Source: Microlunatus sagamiharensis (lineage in GTDB: Bacteria; Actinomycetota; Actinomycetes; Propionibacteriales; Propionibacteriaceae). From it: 64,000 nucleotides of DNA. The DNA lies in NCBI RefSeq assembly GCF_900105785.1, contig NZ_LT629799.1, forward strand, positions 124,001 to 188,000. The letters are read 5' to 3'. Under the pieces are notes generated by a model that saw only the letters and a program-made list of their open reading frames with translations, did not search any database and was not told the DNA's origin. Positions 864 through 22,592 of the stretch are shown here, piece after piece. Position numbers and translations under genes: made by a program. Position 1 is the stretch's first letter; every line of letters starts with the position of its first letter.

Positions 864-1376
864 ATGGATGCGGCGACGGGAGACGGTGGGCGCCCCGACC
901 CAGCCCCCCTCGTGACGGCCGAGGAGGCCGACGCGCTGAGCCTGGACGACCGGCTCTGCCTCGCCCTCTACACCGCGTCGCGCTCGATGACCGCCCGCTA
1001 CCGCGTCGCTCTCGAGGACCTCGGCCTGACCTACCCGCAGTACCTCGTCATGGTGCTGCTGTGGGAGGAGGGCTCCGTCCCGGTCGGACGGCTCGGCGAG
1101 CGCCTGTCGCTCGAGTCGAGCACGCTGTCGCCGCTGCTCAAGCGCCTCGAGTCGATGGGCCTGATCAGCCGTACGCGCGACCGCGCCGACGAGCGCCTCG
1201 TGATCATCAGCCTGACCAAGGCCGGGCTCCGCATGCAGGAGCAGGCCGGCGCGGTGACCCTCGAGGTCTGCCGCGCCTCGGGCCTGACCATGGGCGACGC
1301 CGCCGAGCTCGTCGGCGAGCTCCGCGCCCTCGACGGGCGGCTGCGGGAGTCGACGCGCCAGGCGCGCTCCGCGTGA
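864..1376 (+). CDS. MarR family regulator, OhrR-type peroxide sensor
   Basis: A 170-aa winged-helix regulator. The N-terminal part (DDRLCLALYTASR) places a Cys at residue 32 where OhrR proteins keep the reactive cysteine oxidised by organic hydroperoxides. The YPQYLVMVLLWEEG helix, the recognition region SLESSTLSPLLKRLESMGLI and the wing with RDRADERL follow in MarR order. By family knowledge it would repress ohr-type peroxidase genes and itself until oxidised, but no ohr gene is adjacent. The start ATG is chosen because a -10 box lies 7 nt upstream. MarR family is certain; the OhrR subtype is an inference from the cysteine and the local sequence. Confidence 0.85.
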   Translation: MDAATGDGGRPDPAPLVTAEEADALSLDDRLCLALYTASRSMTARYRVALEDLGLTYPQYLVMVLLWEEGSVPVGRLGERLSLESSTLSPLLKRLESMGLISRTRDRADERLVIISLTKAGLRMQEQAGAVTLEVCRASGLTMGDAAELVGELRALDGRLRESTRQARSA

Positions 1377-1377
1377 T

Positions 1378-1452
1378 CTGAGTCTTCTGTCCTCGCTCGG
1401 ACGCGGACCGGGCTGAGTCGTCTGTCCTCGCTCCGCTCGGACGCGGATCAGG
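1378..1452 (+). repeat. Two-unit tandem repeat after the OhrR-type gene
   Basis: Two imperfect units, 1378-1412 (35 bp) and 1413-1452 (40 bp), both begin CTGAGTC, share TCTGTCCTCGCT and CTCGGACGCGGA, and differ mainly by a 5-bp CTCCG insertion in the second. They fill the first part of the 193-bp gap before helR and lead directly into the nested-stem element. Confidence 0.7.
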
Positions 1453-1460
1453 CTCTGGTC

Positions 1461-1525
1461 CGACGTCTTCCTCCCTGCCGAGCAGGACGAAGAGCGTGTC
1501 CTGCTCCTCCGGTCGTCCAGGCACC
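1461..1525. repeat. Nested-stem intergenic element, copy 1
   Basis: An inner perfect 9-bp inverted repeat, GAGCAGGAC (1480-1488) and GTCCTGCTC (1498-1506), with loop GAAGAGCGT. It is flanked by TTCCTCC (1468-1474) on the left and CGGTCGTCCAGGC (1510-1522) on the right. The same flanks recur at 17345-17440 and 22368-22457 around stems of different sequence. The outer stem seen in the other two copies is poorly preserved here. The element lies between convergent genes, so it may also serve as a terminator. Confidence 0.65.
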
Positions 1526-1569
1526 GGCGCCCGGTCCGGCGTCGGTCGGGTCTGGGCTGGCTCCCGCGT

Positions 1570-3642
1570 CTAGTCGAGGGCTCCCGGCAGGTCGTGGGTG
1601 TGGACGACGACCAGGCTCGTGACCGCCCTGGTGAGGCAGACGTAGAGGCGCCTGAGGCCGGTGACCTCGTCGGCCTCGGCGGCGACGAGCTCGGCGGGCT
1701 CGAGGAGGACGACGTGGTCGAACTCCAGGCCCTTGACCAGGGTCGCCGGGACCAGGTCGACCCGGGGCGCCGCGTCGGTGCCGAAGTCGCCGGCCTCGCC
1801 GAGCAGGTCGTACGCCACCCCTGACGTCCCGAGGGCCGCGGCGACCTCAGCGATGCGGGCGTCGGGGACGACGACGCCGACCGTCCCCTCCTGCGCCAGG
1901 TCGGCCTGCACGGCCGCCAGGAGCCCGGCGAGGGGGTCGTCGGTGCGGCGCAGGTCGAGCTCGCCGGCCGAGTGGCGCACCGAGCGCGGTGGCGTCAGCG
2001 TCGGGGCGATGACCGGCAGCAGCCGGGCGGCGTAGTCGATGACCAGCCCCGGCACCCGGAACCCCTCCACGAGCTCGGTGACGACCGCCTCCGGCTGGCC
2101 GAGGTGGGCGAGGGCGTCGTCCCACGCACCCACCGCCCAGGGCGTGGTCGCCTGCGCGAGGTCGCCCAGGACGGTCATCGAGCCGGTGCTCGCGCGCCGG
2201 CCGACGGCCCGCAGCATCATCGGCGAGAGGTCCTGCGCCTCGTCGAGGACGACGTGGCCGAGGCTCGGCGTCCGGCTCAGCACGTCGGTCACCTCGTCGA
2301 CCAGCGCGAGGTCCGCCAGCGTCCAGCGGGCGGTCCGCGGCGTCTTCCCCGGGCGGCTCGCCAGCAGCTCCGCCTGCTCCTCGGCGCTCAGCAGGCCGTC
2401 GGCGGCCGCGGCCAGGAGGTCCGCGTCGGTCAGCAGCCGCAGCACCAGCTTCGCGGGGTCCAGCGCGGGCCAGAGGGAGGAGACGTACGCCTTCACCTCC
2501 CGGCTGCGGGCCACGGCGCCCTGGACGCGGTCGTCGGGGGAGTCGCCGGCGGCCTCCATGCGCAGCAGGACCTGGTGGGCGAGGCGCTGGGCGAGCATGG
2601 CGCGGCCGGCCTCGTAGCGCACCCCGCGGGCGCGCAGCTCGGCCACGACCTCGTCGGCGAGGTACGCCGGCACCCGCCACTGGTGGATGCCCCGGGGCAG
2701 GACGAGGGTCCCGCTCGCGGGCGCGAGGTGGCCCCAGGCCGCGCGGCGGACGACCTCGGCCAGCCGGGCGTCGCCCTTGAGCCGGGCGCGCGCCGCGGAT
2801 TCGGTCGCCCGGACAACCAGCCCGGTCGCGTCGGCGAGCATGGACTCGACGGTGGCCTGGGCGGCGTCGATCTCGCCGAGGGCTGGCAGGACGTCGCCGA
2901 TGTAGGACAGGAAGCTCGCGTTGGGCCCGACGACGAGCACTCCCGAGCGACCCAGCTGCTCGCGGTAGGCGTAGAGGAGGAAGGCCGCGCGGTGCAGCCC
3001 CACCGCCGTCTTGCCGGTGCCGGGCGCTCCCTGCACGCAGACCGAGGAGTCCAGCCCGGCGCGCACGATGACGTCCTGCTCGGGCTGGATGGTGGCGACG
3101 ATGTCGCGCATGGGTCCGGTGCGCGGCCGCTCGATCTCGGCCTGGAGGATCGCCGAACCGGTGCCGCTCGCGCCGGCGCCGCCGGCGAGGTCCTCGTCCT
3201 CGTACGCGGTCAGCGCGCCGGTCGAGAAGCCGAAGCGCCGCCGGCGGCGCACGTGCATCGGGTCGGCCGGACGGGCGCGGTAGAAGGGCAGCGCCATGCC
3301 CGCGCGCCAGTCGATGACCAGTGGTTCGCCGCCGGCCTCGCCGGTGATGTGGCGCCGGCCGACGTAGAGCGTCTCGTCGTGCTCCGCACCGAGGTCGGCG
3401 GCGTAGTCGAGCCGGCCGAAGAACAGCGGCACCGCGGGGTCGTCCTGCAGCGAGAGCATCCGGCGGTGCAGGACCTGCTTGAGGTGCTCGGTGGCCAGCC
3501 GGTCGGCGCCCTGGGCGGTCAGCCCCGCGGTCGTCGTCCGCATCCGGCCGAGCGCGGCGCGCGACTCGAGGAGGTGGTCCTGCTCGGCGCGGAGCACCGG
3601 ATCAGGAGGGTGGTCGGTGGGGGCGGTCTGGCCTGCGGGCAT
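1570..3642 (-). CDS. helR: HelR/HelD-like RNA polymerase-recycling motor ATPase
   Basis: A 690-aa superfamily 1 (UvrD/HelD-like) ATPase. Walker A (QGAPGTGKTAVGLH) lies near residue 204, the B motif is VVLDEAQDLSP, and the C-terminal helicase-like motif is LVKGLEFDHVVLLEP. The N-terminus is a charged coiled segment and there are GRRHITGE and VIDWRAG motifs as in HelR. By family knowledge these proteins bind stalled RNA polymerase, clear nucleic acid and rifamycin, and recycle the enzyme. I chose ATG 3642 because CGGAG lies 7 nt upstream; the longer GTG start at 3711 falls inside a repeat shared with 54.9-55.1 kb. No rifamycin-associated element is visible upstream. The gene stands alone, convergent with the MarR gene. 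Confidence 0.85.
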   Translation of the reverse strand: MPAGQTAPTDHPPDPVLRAEQDHLLESRAALGRMRTTTAGLTAQGADRLATEHLKQVLHRRMLSLQDDPAVPLFFGRLDYAADLGAEHDETLYVGRRHITGEAGGEPLVIDWRAGMALPFYRARPADPMHVRRRRRFGFSTGALTAYEDEDLAGGAGASGTGSAILQAEIERPRTGPMRDIVATIQPEQDVIVRAGLDSSVCVQGAPGTGKTAVGLHRAAFLLYAYREQLGRSGVLVVGPNASFLSYIGDVLPALGEIDAAQATVESMLADATGLVVRATESAARARLKGDARLAEVVRRAAWGHLAPASGTLVLPRGIHQWRVPAYLADEVVAELRARGVRYEAGRAMLAQRLAHQVLLRMEAAGDSPDDRVQGAVARSREVKAYVSSLWPALDPAKLVLRLLTDADLLAAAADGLLSAEEQAELLASRPGKTPRTARWTLADLALVDEVTDVLSRTPSLGHVVLDEAQDLSPMMLRAVGRRASTGSMTVLGDLAQATTPWAVGAWDDALAHLGQPEAVVTELVEGFRVPGLVIDYAARLLPVIAPTLTPPRSVRHSAGELDLRRTDDPLAGLLAAVQADLAQEGTVGVVVPDARIAEVAAALGTSGVAYDLLGEAGDFGTDAAPRVDLVPATLVKGLEFDHVVLLEPAELVAAEADEVTGLRRLYVCLTRAVTSLVVVHTHDLPGALD

Positions 3643-15485: not shown

Positions 15486-15950
15486 ATGAGTACCCCGACG
15501 ATCGCCCGGAGCGTCCGCAGCGACCTGCGGAGCGTGGCCGGGCTGTCGGACGCGCTGCGTCCGGCGGTCATGCAGCTCGCCCGCCGGCTGCGCCAGGTGC
15601 GCGCCGACGCCGTCGAGCTGACGCCGACCCAGCTGTCGGCGATGGGCGTGCTCGCCCGCAACGACGACCAGCCGATCGGCGCGCTCGCCGCGGCCGAGAA
15701 GGTCGCGGCCCCGTCGATGACGCGGACCGTGAACGCGCTGGAGGAGCGCGGGCTCGTCGTCCGCGCCCCCGACCCGAACGACCGCCGCCAGTCGCGCGTC
15801 TCCCTGACGCCCGCGGGGCGCGAGCTGCTGCTGGCCAACCGTCGCCGGCGCAGCGAGTGGCTCGCCCAGCGCATCGCCGAGCTCGACCCCGAGGACAAGG
15901 AGGTGCTCCGCCGCGCGGTGGGCATCTTCGAGAGGATCACCGACAAGTGA
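15486..15950 (+). CDS. MarR family regulator of adjacent MFS exporter
   Basis: A 154-aa regulator with LTPTQLSAMGVLARND, recognition helix EKVAAPSMTRTVNALEERGLV and wing DPNDRRQSRVSLT. The MFS gene starts within its stop codon (GTGA), a common regulator-exporter pair in which the regulator represses the operon until a small molecule binds. An AT-rich inverted repeat lies over the promoter. The start is set by the -10 box 7 nt upstream. Confidence 0.92.
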   Translation: MSTPTIARSVRSDLRSVAGLSDALRPAVMQLARRLRQVRADAVELTPTQLSAMGVLARNDDQPIGALAAAEKVAAPSMTRTVNALEERGLVVRAPDPNDRRQSRVSLTPAGRELLLANRRRRSEWLAQRIAELDPEDKEVLRRAVGIFERITDK

Positions 15951-17305
15951 GCGCCCCCGTGAAGGCGGACCCCGAGACCCCCCTGCCCGAGACCCCCCTG
16001 CCCGAGACGCCCGTGCGCGAGGCCCACGACCCGGCCGAGGCTGCGAGAGCCAACCGCATGTTCGCCGCGCTGGCCGAGCCGAACTACCGCATCTACTTCG
16101 CCGGCGCCTTCGTCTCCAACATCGGCACGTGGATGCAGCGCGTCGCCCAGGACTGGCTCGTGCTCGAGCTGTCGCACGGCTCGGCGCTCGCGGTCGGCGT
16201 GACGACCGGGCTGCAGTTCCTGCCGATGCTGCTCCTGTCGCCGTACGGCGGCCTGGTCGCCGACCGCTTCGACAAGCGCCGCATCCTGCGCGTCACGCAG
16301 GGCTGGCTGGCCGTCTGCGCCGCCGTCCTCGGCGTGCTCGCCGTCACCGGTGTCGCGCAGACCTGGCACGTCTTCGTGGTCGCGCTCGCCTTCGGCCTCG
16401 GCACCGCCTTCGACAACCCGGCCCGGCAGGCCTTCGTCTCCGAGGTCGCGGGTAAGGCGCACATCGCCAACGCGATCGGGCTCAACTCCGCGAACTTCAA
16501 CGTCGGCCGCATCATCGGCCCGGCCATCGCCGGCCTGGTCATCGCCGCCTTCGGCTCCGGCTGGGCGATCCTGTCCAACGCCGTCACCTACGGCGCGATG
16601 ATCCTCGCGCTCACGCTGATGAACGCCCGGCTGCTCAACCGCGCCGAGCGCCCGCCGCGGGCCAAGCACCAGATCCGCGAGGGCATGTCGTACGTCTGGC
16701 ACCGCACCGACCTGCTGCTGATCCTCTGCGTCGCGTTCTTCGTCGGCACCTTCGGCATGAACTTCCAGATGACGTCCGCGCTGATGGCCCAGCAGGAGTT
16801 CCACAAGGGCGCGGCCGAGTACGGGATCCTCGGCACGTTCATGGCGGTGGGTTCGCTGACCGGCGCGCTGCTCGCCGCGAAGCGCCGCGTGCGGCCGCGG
16901 GGACGGTTCGTGGTGGTGATGGCGCTCGCCTTCGCCGCGGTCGAGATCGTGGCCGGGCTGATGCCGACGTACGCCACGTACGCCGCGATCCTCCCGCTGC
17001 TCGGCCTCGTCGCCCTCTCCACGCTGACCGCCGCGAACGCCTCGGTCCAGCTCGGGGCGGCCCCGCACCTGCGTGGTCGGGTGATGGCGCTCTACATGAT
17101 GGTGCTGATGGGCGGCACCCCGATCGGCGCGCCGCTGCTCGGGTGGGTCGGCGAGGTCCTCGGCCCGCGCTGGACGCTGATCGGCGGTGGCGGCCTCACC
17201 GCCCTCGGCGTGATCGCCACGGTCGCGTTCGTGATGCACCGCGAGCACCTGCGCATCACCCCGCACCTGCAGCCGCGCCCGAACCTCGAGGTCCACGCCC
17301 TGTGA
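15947..17305 (+). CDS. MFS transporter (EntS-like exporter family)
   Basis: A 452-aa membrane protein with about twelve hydrophobic segments and conserved MFS_3 features: MFAALAEPNYRIYFAGAFVSNIGTWMQR opening, then GGLVADRFDKRR after TM2. GTG 15947 overlaps the MarR stop by 4 bp. The ~35-residue cytoplasmic N-terminus holds a repeated ETPLP pentapeptide coded by a 15-bp tandem repeat, which is unusual for the family. It probably exports the ligand sensed by the MarR protein; the substrate is unknown. After the stop, 17306-17486 holds no gene but does hold nested-stem element copy 2 and the next promoter. Confidence 0.9.
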   Translation: MSAPVKADPETPLPETPLPETPVREAHDPAEAARANRMFAALAEPNYRIYFAGAFVSNIGTWMQRVAQDWLVLELSHGSALAVGVTTGLQFLPMLLLSPYGGLVADRFDKRRILRVTQGWLAVCAAVLGVLAVTGVAQTWHVFVVALAFGLGTAFDNPARQAFVSEVAGKAHIANAIGLNSANFNVGRIIGPAIAGLVIAAFGSGWAILSNAVTYGAMILALTLMNARLLNRAERPPRAKHQIREGMSYVWHRTDLLLILCVAFFVGTFGMNFQMTSALMAQQEFHKGAAEYGILGTFMAVGSLTGALLAAKRRVRPRGRFVVVMALAFAAVEIVAGLMPTYATYAAILPLLGLVALSTLTAANASVQLGAAPHLRGRVMALYMMVLMGGTPIGAPLLGWVGEVLGPRWTLIGGGGLTALGVIATVAFVMHREHLRITPHLQPRPNLEVHAL

Positions 17306-17344
17306 TCTGCCTCCGCTCCGCTCCGGCGCTCCGAGCGCTCCGAT

Positions 17345-17440
17345 CCGCTGCCTTCCTCCCTCCCCGCGACGCCGCCAGCTCGCCGTGATCCCTCGAGTGG
17401 TGCGCGGGGCGTCGTCGCGGTCCGGTCGTCCAGGCAGCGG
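17345..17440. repeat. Nested-stem intergenic element, copy 2
   Basis: The outer stem CCGCTGCCT (17345-17353) pairs perfectly with AGGCAGCGG (17432-17440). Inside lie TCCTCC and the conserved CGGTCGTCCAGGC (17423-17435). The inner pairing is CCCCGCG (17362-17368) with CGCGGGG (17403-17409), or alternatively CGACGCC with GGCGTCG. It follows the MFS gene by 40 bp. Confidence 0.75.
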
Positions 17441-17486
17441 CGCGCTCGTCGGCGGGGGTCGAGCGCGTGCTCGCTAGGGTCCGGTC

Positions 17487-18140
17487 ATGAGCAAGAAGCC
17501 GACCGTCACCGTCCGGGGCGAGGGTCAGGTCGAGGGGCCGCCGGAGCTGGCGACCGTCGCGGCCGTCCTCCACACCTCGGGGCGTACGGCGGCTGACGTC
17601 ACCCGTGCGCTCGCGGAGACGTCGAAGCGCGTCGACGCCGCCCTGCCCGACCTGGTCTACGACTCGGTGCGCACGGACCCGCTCTCGGTGACGCCCGTCT
17701 TCGACCGGCGCTCCGGCGTGAGGATCACCGGCTACTCCGGCCGCTACTCCACCCGTCTCACCCTCGCCGACTTCAGCGGCCTGTCCGACCTCGTCGTCGC
17801 CCTCACCGGTCTGCCGGGTGCGCAGGTCGACGGGTCCTGGTGGTCGCTGCGCCCGGGCTCCCCGCTCGAGCGCGACGCCCGCCGCGCCGCCGTGGCGGCC
17901 GCGATCGCCCGCGCCCGCGACTACGCCGACGCCCTGGGCGCCACCCTCGGCGACCTCCTCGAGCTCTCCGACACCGACGGAGGGTTCGGTGGGGCGATGC
18001 CCCGCGTGCTCGCCCTGGCCGCCGCCGGCGGCGAGCCCCCCGAGCTCGACCTGGAGCCGCAGCCCCAGACCGTGTCCGCCTCGGTGACCGCCCGCTTCGC
18101 GCTCGCGGACGTGCCGTCGTCCAGCGCGCTGCCGACGTAG
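17487..18140 (+). CDS. SIMPL domain (DUF541) protein
   Basis: A 217-aa protein matching the SIMPL/DUF541 family: an opening TVTVRGEGQVEGPPELATV, a middle RRSGVRITGYSGRYSTRLTL and a late helical ARDYADALGATLGDLLEL. Unlike many family members it has no signal peptide, so it should be cytoplasmic. Family function is poorly defined. TAGGGT lies 6 nt before ATG 17487, so the start is probably leaderless. The stop TAG is the first base pair region of a 24-bp inverted repeat. Confidence 0.82.
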   Translation: MSKKPTVTVRGEGQVEGPPELATVAAVLHTSGRTAADVTRALAETSKRVDAALPDLVYDSVRTDPLSVTPVFDRRSGVRITGYSGRYSTRLTLADFSGLSDLVVALTGLPGAQVDGSWWSLRPGSPLERDARRAAVAAAIARARDYADALGATLGDLLELSDTDGGFGGAMPRVLALAAAGGEPPELDLEPQPQTVSASVTARFALADVPSSSALPT

Positions 18141-21783: not shown

Positions 21784-22350
21784 ATGTCGTTCCTCGGCCT
21801 GCTGGCCATCGCCCTCGGGGTGTCCGCGGACGCCTTCGCCGTGGCCCTCGGCAAGGGCCTGCACATGTCGCGCTTCGACCTGCGGCACGCCGTCGCGATC
21901 GCGCTGACCTTCGGCGGGTTCCAGGCGCTGATGCCCCTGGTCGGCTGGGTGCTGGCGAGCCAGTTCGCCCGCTACATCACCGGCGTCGACCACTGGATCG
22001 CCTTCGGCCTGCTGCTGCTCATCGGCCTCAAGATGATCTGGGAGGCCGTCCGCGGGGGCGAGGACACCGACGAGGACAGCGACGCGCTGCCCGTCCGCGA
22101 GCTGCTCGTGCTGGCCGTCGCGACGAGCATCGACGCGCTGGCCGTCGGCATCTCGTTCGCGTTCCTGGACGTCGCCGTCGGCTGGGCCGTGCTGCTGATC
22201 GGGGTGTGCACCGCGGTGCTCAGCTTCGTCGGGGTGCTGCTGGGGCGTCGCGTCGGGCGCAGGTTCGGCGGGCCGGCCGAGATCGCCGGCGGCGTGATCC
22301 TGATCCTCATCGGCACGCGGGTGCTGCTGCAGCACACCGGGGTGCTGTGA
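21784..22350 (+). CDS. mntP: MntP-type manganese efflux pump
   Basis: A 188-aa membrane protein with about six hydrophobic segments. The two internal family repeats each carry the acidic motif: GVSADAFAVALGKGL near residue 12 and ATSIDALAVGISFAF near residue 118. By family knowledge it exports Mn2+ across the cytoplasmic membrane. The loop between repeats is acidic (GGEDTDEDSDALP). No yybP-ykoY riboswitch is seen in the 16 bp after pyc, so it may be read from the pyc promoter. Confidence 0.88.
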   Translation: MSFLGLLAIALGVSADAFAVALGKGLHMSRFDLRHAVAIALTFGGFQALMPLVGWVLASQFARYITGVDHWIAFGLLLLIGLKMIWEAVRGGEDTDEDSDALPVRELLVLAVATSIDALAVGISFAFLDVAVGWAVLLIGVCTAVLSFVGVLLGRRVGRRFGGPAEIAGGVILILIGTRVLLQHTGVL

Positions 22351-22367
22351 CACCGGCCGCTCGCGGC

Positions 22368-22457
22368 GGGCGCCCCTGACGTCCCGCCTTCCTCCTCTCG
22401 GATCACGACGGGAAGGCGTGTCGTGATCCGCTCGTCGTCCAGGCGGGACGGGCGCCC
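22368..22457. repeat. Nested-stem intergenic element, copy 3 (best formed)
   Basis: The outer stem GTCCCGCCT (22381-22389) pairs with AGGCGGGAC (22441-22449), extended by GGGCGCCC on both sides. The inner stem GGATCACGAC (22400-22409) pairs with GTCGTGATCC (22420-22429) around loop GGGAAGGCGT. Between the stems lie TTCCTCC on the left and GTCGTCC on the right, as in copies 1 and 2. It sits in the 242-bp gap between convergent mntP and a small minus-strand gene. The rest of that gap shows no gene. Confidence 0.8.
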
Positions 22458-22592
22458 GGTCTTCGACGCTCGCGGCGATGCGGCCCGGACAGCACGAACC
22501 CGTCCCGCGAGCACGAGGCGAGCGCCTCGTCGAGGGACGGGTGGAAGAACGGGTGGGTCCGGGCGGGGGAGCCTGGCGGCAGCCCGGGTGGG

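Follow-up and report, generated by a model that had tools for sequence, protein, structure and literature searches.

The element at positions 22368-22457 of the window (the 64,000-nucleotide stretch of DNA analysed here) consists of nested stems enclosing short conserved strands, and it raises the question of whether it belongs to a family whose structure is kept by selection and, if so, whether this family is a structured RNA, a terminator class or a small mobile hairpin. The double-stem element itself had been drawn correctly in the initial annotation: the stems and the conserved strands are present, and the fold beats 200 of 200 shuffles. Two covariance models were built, R1 from 11 copies and a longer one, R2, from 29 copies (142 positions). 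In what follows, G000 denotes the own genome (4.4 Mb), and G010, G014, G017 and G018 denote other Microlunatus genomes. The copies in the window and the parts of the reported copy, with stems assigned from sequence and predicted fold, are as follows:

1419-1560, plus strand: copy 1 (R2 match G000:C1:125419-125560, E 1.6e-25), 5' hairpin P0 present, TTCCTCC at 1468-1474
17304-17473, plus strand: copy 2 (R2 match G000:C1:141304-141473, E 1.6e-14), with a long inner hairpin
22345-22480, plus strand: copy 3, the reported copy (R2 match G000:C1:146345-146480, E 1.1e-8)
22368-22374, plus strand: 5' arm of stem P1, GGGCGCC, partner GGCGCCC at 22451-22457
22380-22388, plus strand: 5' arm of stem P2, CGTCCCGCC, partner GGCGGGACG at 22442-22450
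22389-22395, plus strand: conserved strand TTCCTCC, which is GGAGGAA on the minus strand
22400-22409, plus strand: 5' arm of stem P3, GGATCACGAC, partner GTCGTGATCC at 22420-22429
22410-22419, plus strand: P3 loop GGGAAGGCGT
22434-22441, plus strand: conserved strand GTCGTCCA, read as TGGACGAC on the minus strand

In copy 3, stem P3 is lengthened by the pair C22399-G22430, hairpin P0, conserved in most other copies, has diverged, and the start falls inside the stop codon of mntP (TGA, 22348-22350). The RNA fold of this copy has a z-score of -3.42, with 0 of 200 dinucleotide shuffles as good. For the other two window copies the z-scores are -2.32 and -3.37, matched or bettered by 6 and 0 of 200 shuffles respectively. 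The pattern TTCCTCC-N20-50-GTCGTCCAGGC was found twice in the 64-kb window and not once in 100 shuffles; the copy at 17345 was missed because its inner hairpin is longer than the gap range. While the core had been delimited correctly, the unit extends about 25 nt further 5', where P0 lies, and 12-15 nt further 3'. It had also been noted that all three copies follow plus-strand genes, which is true of the window (a MarR-type regulator, an MFS transporter and MntP) but not of the whole genome, where some copies are antisense to the neighbour gene. Copy 1 lies between the MarR-type gene (864-1376, plus strand) and a gene whose UvrD-like matches are weak (1570-3597, minus strand), and copy 2 between the MFS gene (15947-17305, plus strand) and a SIMPL/DUF541 gene (17487-18140, plus strand). 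Directly upstream of copy 1, window positions 1378-1445 contain partial P0 repeats (TCTGTCCTCGCTCGGACGCGGAC, then TCTGTCCTCGCTCCGCTCGGACGCGG), and similar P0 pieces recur upstream of a tandem array in G010.

The family had been thought to have three members; the three window copies are real, but the genome holds about 42-46. A similarity search with copy 3 returned ten places in the own genome, R1 gave 48 matches at E<=1 (44 of these at E<=0.001), and R2 at E<=0.001 gave 43 matches there, 31 in G010, 20 in G014, 64 in G017 and 45 in G018. One low-scoring own-genome R1 match (2144632) sits within a gene. The own-genome counts are one too high, because the element at 206-346 duplicates that at 4390373-4390514: the contig start, G000:C1:1-3000, is a 98.3% copy with small indels of 4390167-4393209, about 15 kb before the contig end (comparison of the first 3 kb), and is probably an unclosed contig overlap in the assembly. 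The genome search proposed as a test of the family claim thus yielded dozens of further copies, and the claim stands.

The family was matched in 13 of the 20 Microlunatus genomes, seven being without a match, and with R2 at E<=1e-6 and stricter filters in 13 of 198 genomes of the taxonomic family, all from one genus (Microlunatus) of 29. Weak R1 matches outside the genus (G024, G034; loci L081, L082, L094) were judged to be due to chance, as R2 gave none outside the genus in the 198 family genomes, a set that excludes G034, a member of another taxonomic family. Scanning 84,980 species genomes with a pattern that fits short-loop copies only produced 14 stretches, of which ten were in Microlunatus flavus, one in a Friedmanniella MAG and three in unrelated genomes (a Myxococcales MAG, Paraburkholderia and Nitratireductor); the last three were taken for chance matches. 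Phages gave no match to the window copy searched, nor did plasmids to the one own-genome copy searched. Rfam 15 produced no gathering-level match on either strand of the window and, in eight loci, just two sub-threshold matches, both to unrelated families, and for this database, window and loci the earlier remark that no named family matches holds. We did not find the family described in Rfam or in the open-access literature, subscription literature being outside the scope of the search.

The unit of about 140 nt comprises the 5' hairpin P0 and then three nested stems, P1-P3, around the conserved strands. On the plus strand the order is P0 (e.g. GTCC-TCGCTCCGCTC-GGAC), P1, a short internal loop, P2, the TTCCTCC and GTCGTCCA strands, and P3, whose loop has the consensus GAAAAGCGT; a weakly conserved tail ends the unit. 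Inner hairpins are longer in some copies, 17304-17473 among them, and their length varies even at the same locus, being short in G014 (L070) and long in G000 (L064) downstream of a gene of the EPSP-synthase Pfam family, which we take to be murA. Pairing of TTCC with the P3 loop as a pseudoknot was dropped on inspection by eye, since the loop varies and no matching changes accompany it.

Pairing kept with changing sequence had been read as selection on structure, and covariation strongly supports this. When 29 copies were aligned with MAFFT, 90.0% of the 904 cells were paired, compared with 70.7% after shuffling and 33.6-43.0% when the partner was slid, and both sides had changed in 22 of 32 pairs (157 cells); on the measure of further pair types, 110 of 500 shuffles did as well. 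Two larger alignments of 76 and 94 rows were fitted to the model, from 73 and 79 chosen loci at E<=1e-6; they leave out weaker loci of G017, G018, G014 and G010, and the first includes the own-genome duplicate. In these, 93.2% and 91.1% of cells were paired, 35 of 35 and 31 of 35 pairs had changed on both sides, and the covariation score was reached by 0 of 500 shuffles. All stems, P0, P1, P2 and P3, covary, and the family passes this second proposed test as well.

Covariation extends into the internal loop. Across 170 rows, the fourth C of the TTCCTCC strand and the second G of GTCGTCC form CG in 114 rows, GC in 46, TG or GT in 5 and GG in 1, the rest being gapped, while the last C of the former and the first G of the latter form CG in 97 and GC in 54. 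Between these two covarying pairs, TC facing TC is kept in 161 and 159 of the 170 rows. The minus strand therefore has 5'-GA-3' opposite 5'-GA-3', flanked by interchangeable Watson-Crick pairs. Such an arrangement is the pattern of tandem sheared G.A pairs, and the alignment lets the internal loop of the minus strand be read as tandem G.A pairs enclosed by covarying C-G/G-C pairs.

Which strand folds can be judged from the mismatches. If plus-strand RNA were under selection for folding, G.T (G.U in RNA) should exceed A.C; the reverse was found, with 102 A.C and 23 G.T cells in P1-P3 of the 170 rows, a ratio of 4.4. Redealing the letters within columns gave a ratio of 1.00 (range 0.86-1.11, 200 shuffles). 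Composition can shift the ratio, since six slid pairings gave 0.49-2.04, yet none of the six reaches 4.4. The excess persisted when distinct contexts were counted (65 A.C vs 21 G.T, binomial p 2e-6) and when events were inferred by parsimony on trees (60 vs 21, p 2e-5), although both p-values are optimistic because the copies are related. It runs in the same direction in G000, G010, G014, G017, G018 and the pooled others, and in every gene context (G.T vs A.C: tandem-sense 4 vs 28, convergent 11 vs 36, tandem-antisense 1 vs 19, divergent 1 vs 6); by copy, 67 had more A.C, 12 had more G.T and 91 were equal. On the trees, 43 steps led back to a Watson-Crick pair from A.C and 1 from G.T. Mutational bias was rejected as the source of the excess: sense and antisense copies agree, and unpaired positions show no consistent surplus of G-to-A over C-to-T (0.073 vs 0.056 in one alignment, 0.046 vs 0.089 in the other). 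Of 165 copies, 137 folded more stably on the minus strand and 27 on the plus strand. Averaged over a sample of 80, the difference in favour of the minus strand was -4.76 kcal/mol, compared with -1.35 in shuffles. P0 leans opposite to P1-P3, with 17 G.T and 5 A.C cells (12 vs 4 contexts, p 0.08). Because A.C exceeds G.T in every gene context and shuffles give 1:1, the pairing of P1-P3 seems to be kept on the minus strand, which runs opposite to the mRNA of the upstream gene. The suggestion of a structured RNA after plus-strand genes was therefore half right: structure is there, but the P1-P3 mismatches indicate the other strand.

Gene contexts were taken from a codon-usage gene caller made for this analysis rather than from annotation. 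They cover 185 of 208 matches (203 R2 matches at E<=0.001 in G000, G010, G014, G017 and G018, and 5 own-genome matches of R1 only), omitting 17 (2 in G017, 2 in G014, 13 in G010) and 6 more; 3 of the 185 have no called neighbour on at least one side, one being the assembly duplicate G000 206-346. Of the 185 copies, 103 have the 5' end of the element flush with the end of a coding sequence (-10 to +12 nt) and 23 the 3' end. Convergent gaps hold 84 copies (flush at 5' 55, at 3' 15), gaps between tandem genes 61 in sense (36 and 4) and 24 in antisense (6 and 2), and divergent gaps 13 (6 and 1), with three of the 185 undetermined. Some copies (G017:C7:20293-20435, G017:C16:60896-61037, G018:C1:2424682-2424819 and G000:C1:2816964-2817101) have their 5' end directly against the start codon of an opposite-strand gene, and there the end of the element seems to provide a GAGGA- or GGAGG-like ribosome-binding sequence. 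No T-run follows the element, by eye, in the flanks inspected; because of this, the conserved internal-loop motifs and the same asymmetry in antisense copies, a plain terminator, as the proposed terminator class would imply, is not supported.

Comparison of positions between genomes showed considerable turnover. Among the 46 positions of G000, those with a common upstream gene numbered 18 in G017, the closest of the four genomes compared, 5 in G014, 4 in G018 and 2 in G010, the G010 figures resting on 14 of its 31 matches, and G018 and G010 had 5 of 45 in common. As a rough reckoning gives about 0.5 common positions by chance between two 45-copy genomes, some positions are old and many are not. 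None of the upstream genes of the three window copies is shared with any of the four other genome sets. Where the window has the 22345 copy, G014 shows an element-free gap of some tens of bases, and G017 carries about 1.7 kb of other sequence; both genomes also lack the 17304 copy and have another palindrome, CCCTGAGCTTGTCGAAGGG, in its place. The intergenic sequence at these two sites is too diverged for the junctions to be aligned. The other palindrome, sought as CCTGAGCNTGTCGAAG with one mismatch allowed, is absent from the window. A palindrome ACGCTCCCTGAGCTTGTCGAAGGG was seen in L256 and L258 (G014 and G017) at the place orthologous to window 17300-17490, and a similar sequence lies behind some own-genome copies, e.g. 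at 1512455 and 2892637; it is possibly a second repeat family at the same kind of site.

Nearly identical units are lined up head to tail in G010 (five of 135 nt, L255, G010:C1:3298462-3299138) and G019 (three of 132 nt, L087, G019:C1:681755-682136), a sign that units are probably amplified locally in tandem as well as dispersed. Other copies form inverted pairs, e.g. G000 486957-487069 (plus) and 487087-487257 (minus). The copy L106 (G000:C1:3130463-3130610) lies between genes assigned by Pfam to ribosomal proteins L11 and L1, which usually form one operon, and a copy is found at the same place in G018 (G018:C1:1668212-1668351) and G017 (G017:C11:81736-81883), hence in three species of the table, and also in G013 (L075).

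From these results, a hypothesis regarding the nature of the element may be put forward, to which we assign a probability of about one half: a new REP-like family whose units, each of about 140 nt, are scattered through Microlunatus and fold on one strand. Of the options named in the initial annotation, a small mobile hairpin fits best, because positions turn over and the copies are both dispersed and locally arrayed. Copies would spread in single-stranded form, as a hairpin of the upstream gene's antisense strand, which might be recognised through its stems and the tandem G.A internal loop and moved by an enzyme acting in trans that was not detected here or has since been lost. They would persist just after stop codons because insertion is least harmful there, and part of them may have come to act at the 3' ends of mRNAs. 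We prefer to read the folded minus strand as single-stranded DNA, because the asymmetry is independent of gene context, no conserved flank that could hold a promoter is seen, and positions turn over. Several observations count against the hypothesis: neither an enzyme nor a clean filled/empty junction was found, the mismatches of P0 lean the other way, the 4 of 46 positions common with the distant G018 also fit a kept function, and most change bypasses a visible wobble, since the tree count for P1-P3 holds 450 both-sided changes from one Watson-Crick pair to another without a visible intermediate.

Two alternatives assign the element to RNA. It is rather unlikely, in our judgement, that it is a cis-acting sense-strand 3'-UTR RNA of the upstream gene that would end transcription, protect the mRNA or control translation through a hairpin near the stop codon. 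The flush 5' ends (103 of 185), the surplus of sense over antisense copies between same-direction genes (61 vs 24), the lean of P0 mismatches towards the plus strand and positions kept across species, such as L11-L1, all agree with such a role. In E. coli, according to PMC12306157, part of the REPs lie no more than 15 nt from a stop codon, and ribosome stalling is reported for REPs at this distance. Yet the P1-P3 mismatches are A.C and not G.T even with the element in sense (28 vs 4), 28 of the 46 G000 positions are not common to G017, and about 1% of genes at most can have a copy. The mismatch asymmetry itself, together with the covarying pairs around an invariant GA/GA and the more stable minus strand, would suit a minus-strand non-coding or leader RNA whose tandem G.A internal loop binds a protein or ligand, as would the copies lying directly at the start codon of a minus-strand gene, where a GAGGA-like sequence is nearby. 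We regard this as unlikely: the 61 tandem-sense copies, both of whose neighbours are read the other way, show the same asymmetry, and no conservation is visible ahead of the 5' end of the minus strand, so that no shared promoter is seen.

Two further alternatives dispense with a fold-dependent RNA. Template switching during replication, with one arm copied onto the other, might have kept the palindromes perfect after a past duplication without any selection on folding, and the dominance of both-sided changes (157 cells in the MAFFT alignment, 450 tree events) and the rarity of wobble intermediates are what it would produce; it does not predict the conserved loop strands, the pairs that flip around a fixed TC/TC or an A.C:G.T ratio of 4.4, and we hold it to be improbable. 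Recombination sites like integron attC are suggested by analogy alone, namely a hairpin after the stop codon and the use of one strand (the bottom strand of attC, in the part of PMC2117344 that treats it). Since none of 20 genomes has an integron integrase scoring over the curated cut-off, the consensus lacks a conserved AAC/GTT core and the copies are dispersed rather than in cassette arrays, this reading is largely refuted and has hardly any likelihood left. In its most far-reaching form, the preferred REP-like reading would define a class of dispersed elements recognised as one folded strand, ssDNA or RNA, antisense to the preceding gene, via a four-stem structure and a tandem G.A loop, and moved by a non-RAYT enzyme that leaves the flush placement at coding-sequence ends; we propose this tentatively, as a possibility with the odds against it.

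Repeats of the REP type occur widely, and PMC3733652 reports that no dedicated transposase serves one of the two large groups. The present results add a large, strongly covarying repeat family in an actinobacterial genus without a detectable Y1 transposase. Counting mismatch types gives a strand-resolved statement on which strand must fold, and the A.C vs G.T count can be applied to any REP family to distinguish sense RNA, antisense RNA and single-stranded DNA. The flush placement at stop codons also provides natural test cases for control at gene 3' ends.

Enzymes of known systems were sought in the genus. The Y1 transposase (RAYT/IS200, PF01797) was found in 0 of 20 genus genomes, the control being positive in 5 of 14 named genomes, and the integron integrase (TIGR02249) exceeded the curated cut-off in 0 of the 20; its sub-cut-off matches occurred in 20 of 20 genus genomes and also in 14 of 14 control genomes. 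A retroelement was rejected as well: RVT_1 is present in 12 of 20 genus genomes without tracking the family, G017 with 64 matches having none and G008 with 0 matches having four.

The attC core motif is AAC/GTT. Like attC, the Microlunatus element is a hairpin right after a stop codon with one strand used; unlike attC, it has no integrase over the cut-off, no attC core and no cassette arrays. MITEs such as NEMIS and ERIC are described in PMC3733652, where it covers them, as non-coding dispersed elements of 70-300 bp beside genes, and the present element resembles them in being dispersed, non-coding, beside genes and within this size range; it differs in that, on unsystematic inspection, terminal inverted repeats beyond the stems and a target duplication were not seen. 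CGTC REPs, by the account of the same source, lack a dedicated transposase, carry the tag at the end, have 8-9 bp stems nearly always starting with AT pairs and loops of 4-5 nt, and occur in phyla among which its relevant section does not include Actinobacteria. The Microlunatus copies are likewise dispersed, and their strand GTCGTCCA contains the letters CGTC and CCA; here, however, CGTC lies inside the internal loop, and the end tag, AT-start stem and CCA tail of the published description, as far as it is given there, set the CGTC REPs apart. The closest likeness is to GTAG-tagged REPs and BIMEs, which that source, in its description of their location, places near ORF 3' ends, mostly in convergent or unidirectional gaps, either singly, in pairs or in clusters. 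The Microlunatus copies are dispersed, palindromic and extragenic, with dozens in several genomes, and share this placement near ORF 3' ends, the preference for convergent and unidirectional gaps, and the single, paired and clustered arrangement. Unlike GTAG REPs, the family has no GTAG in its consensus and no Y1 transposase in the 20 genus genomes. Its unit measures some 140 nt, with periods of 132 and 135 nt in the tandem arrays, well beyond the 20-40 bp of REPs; it is built of nested stems and P0 and marked by a strand asymmetry in its pairing.
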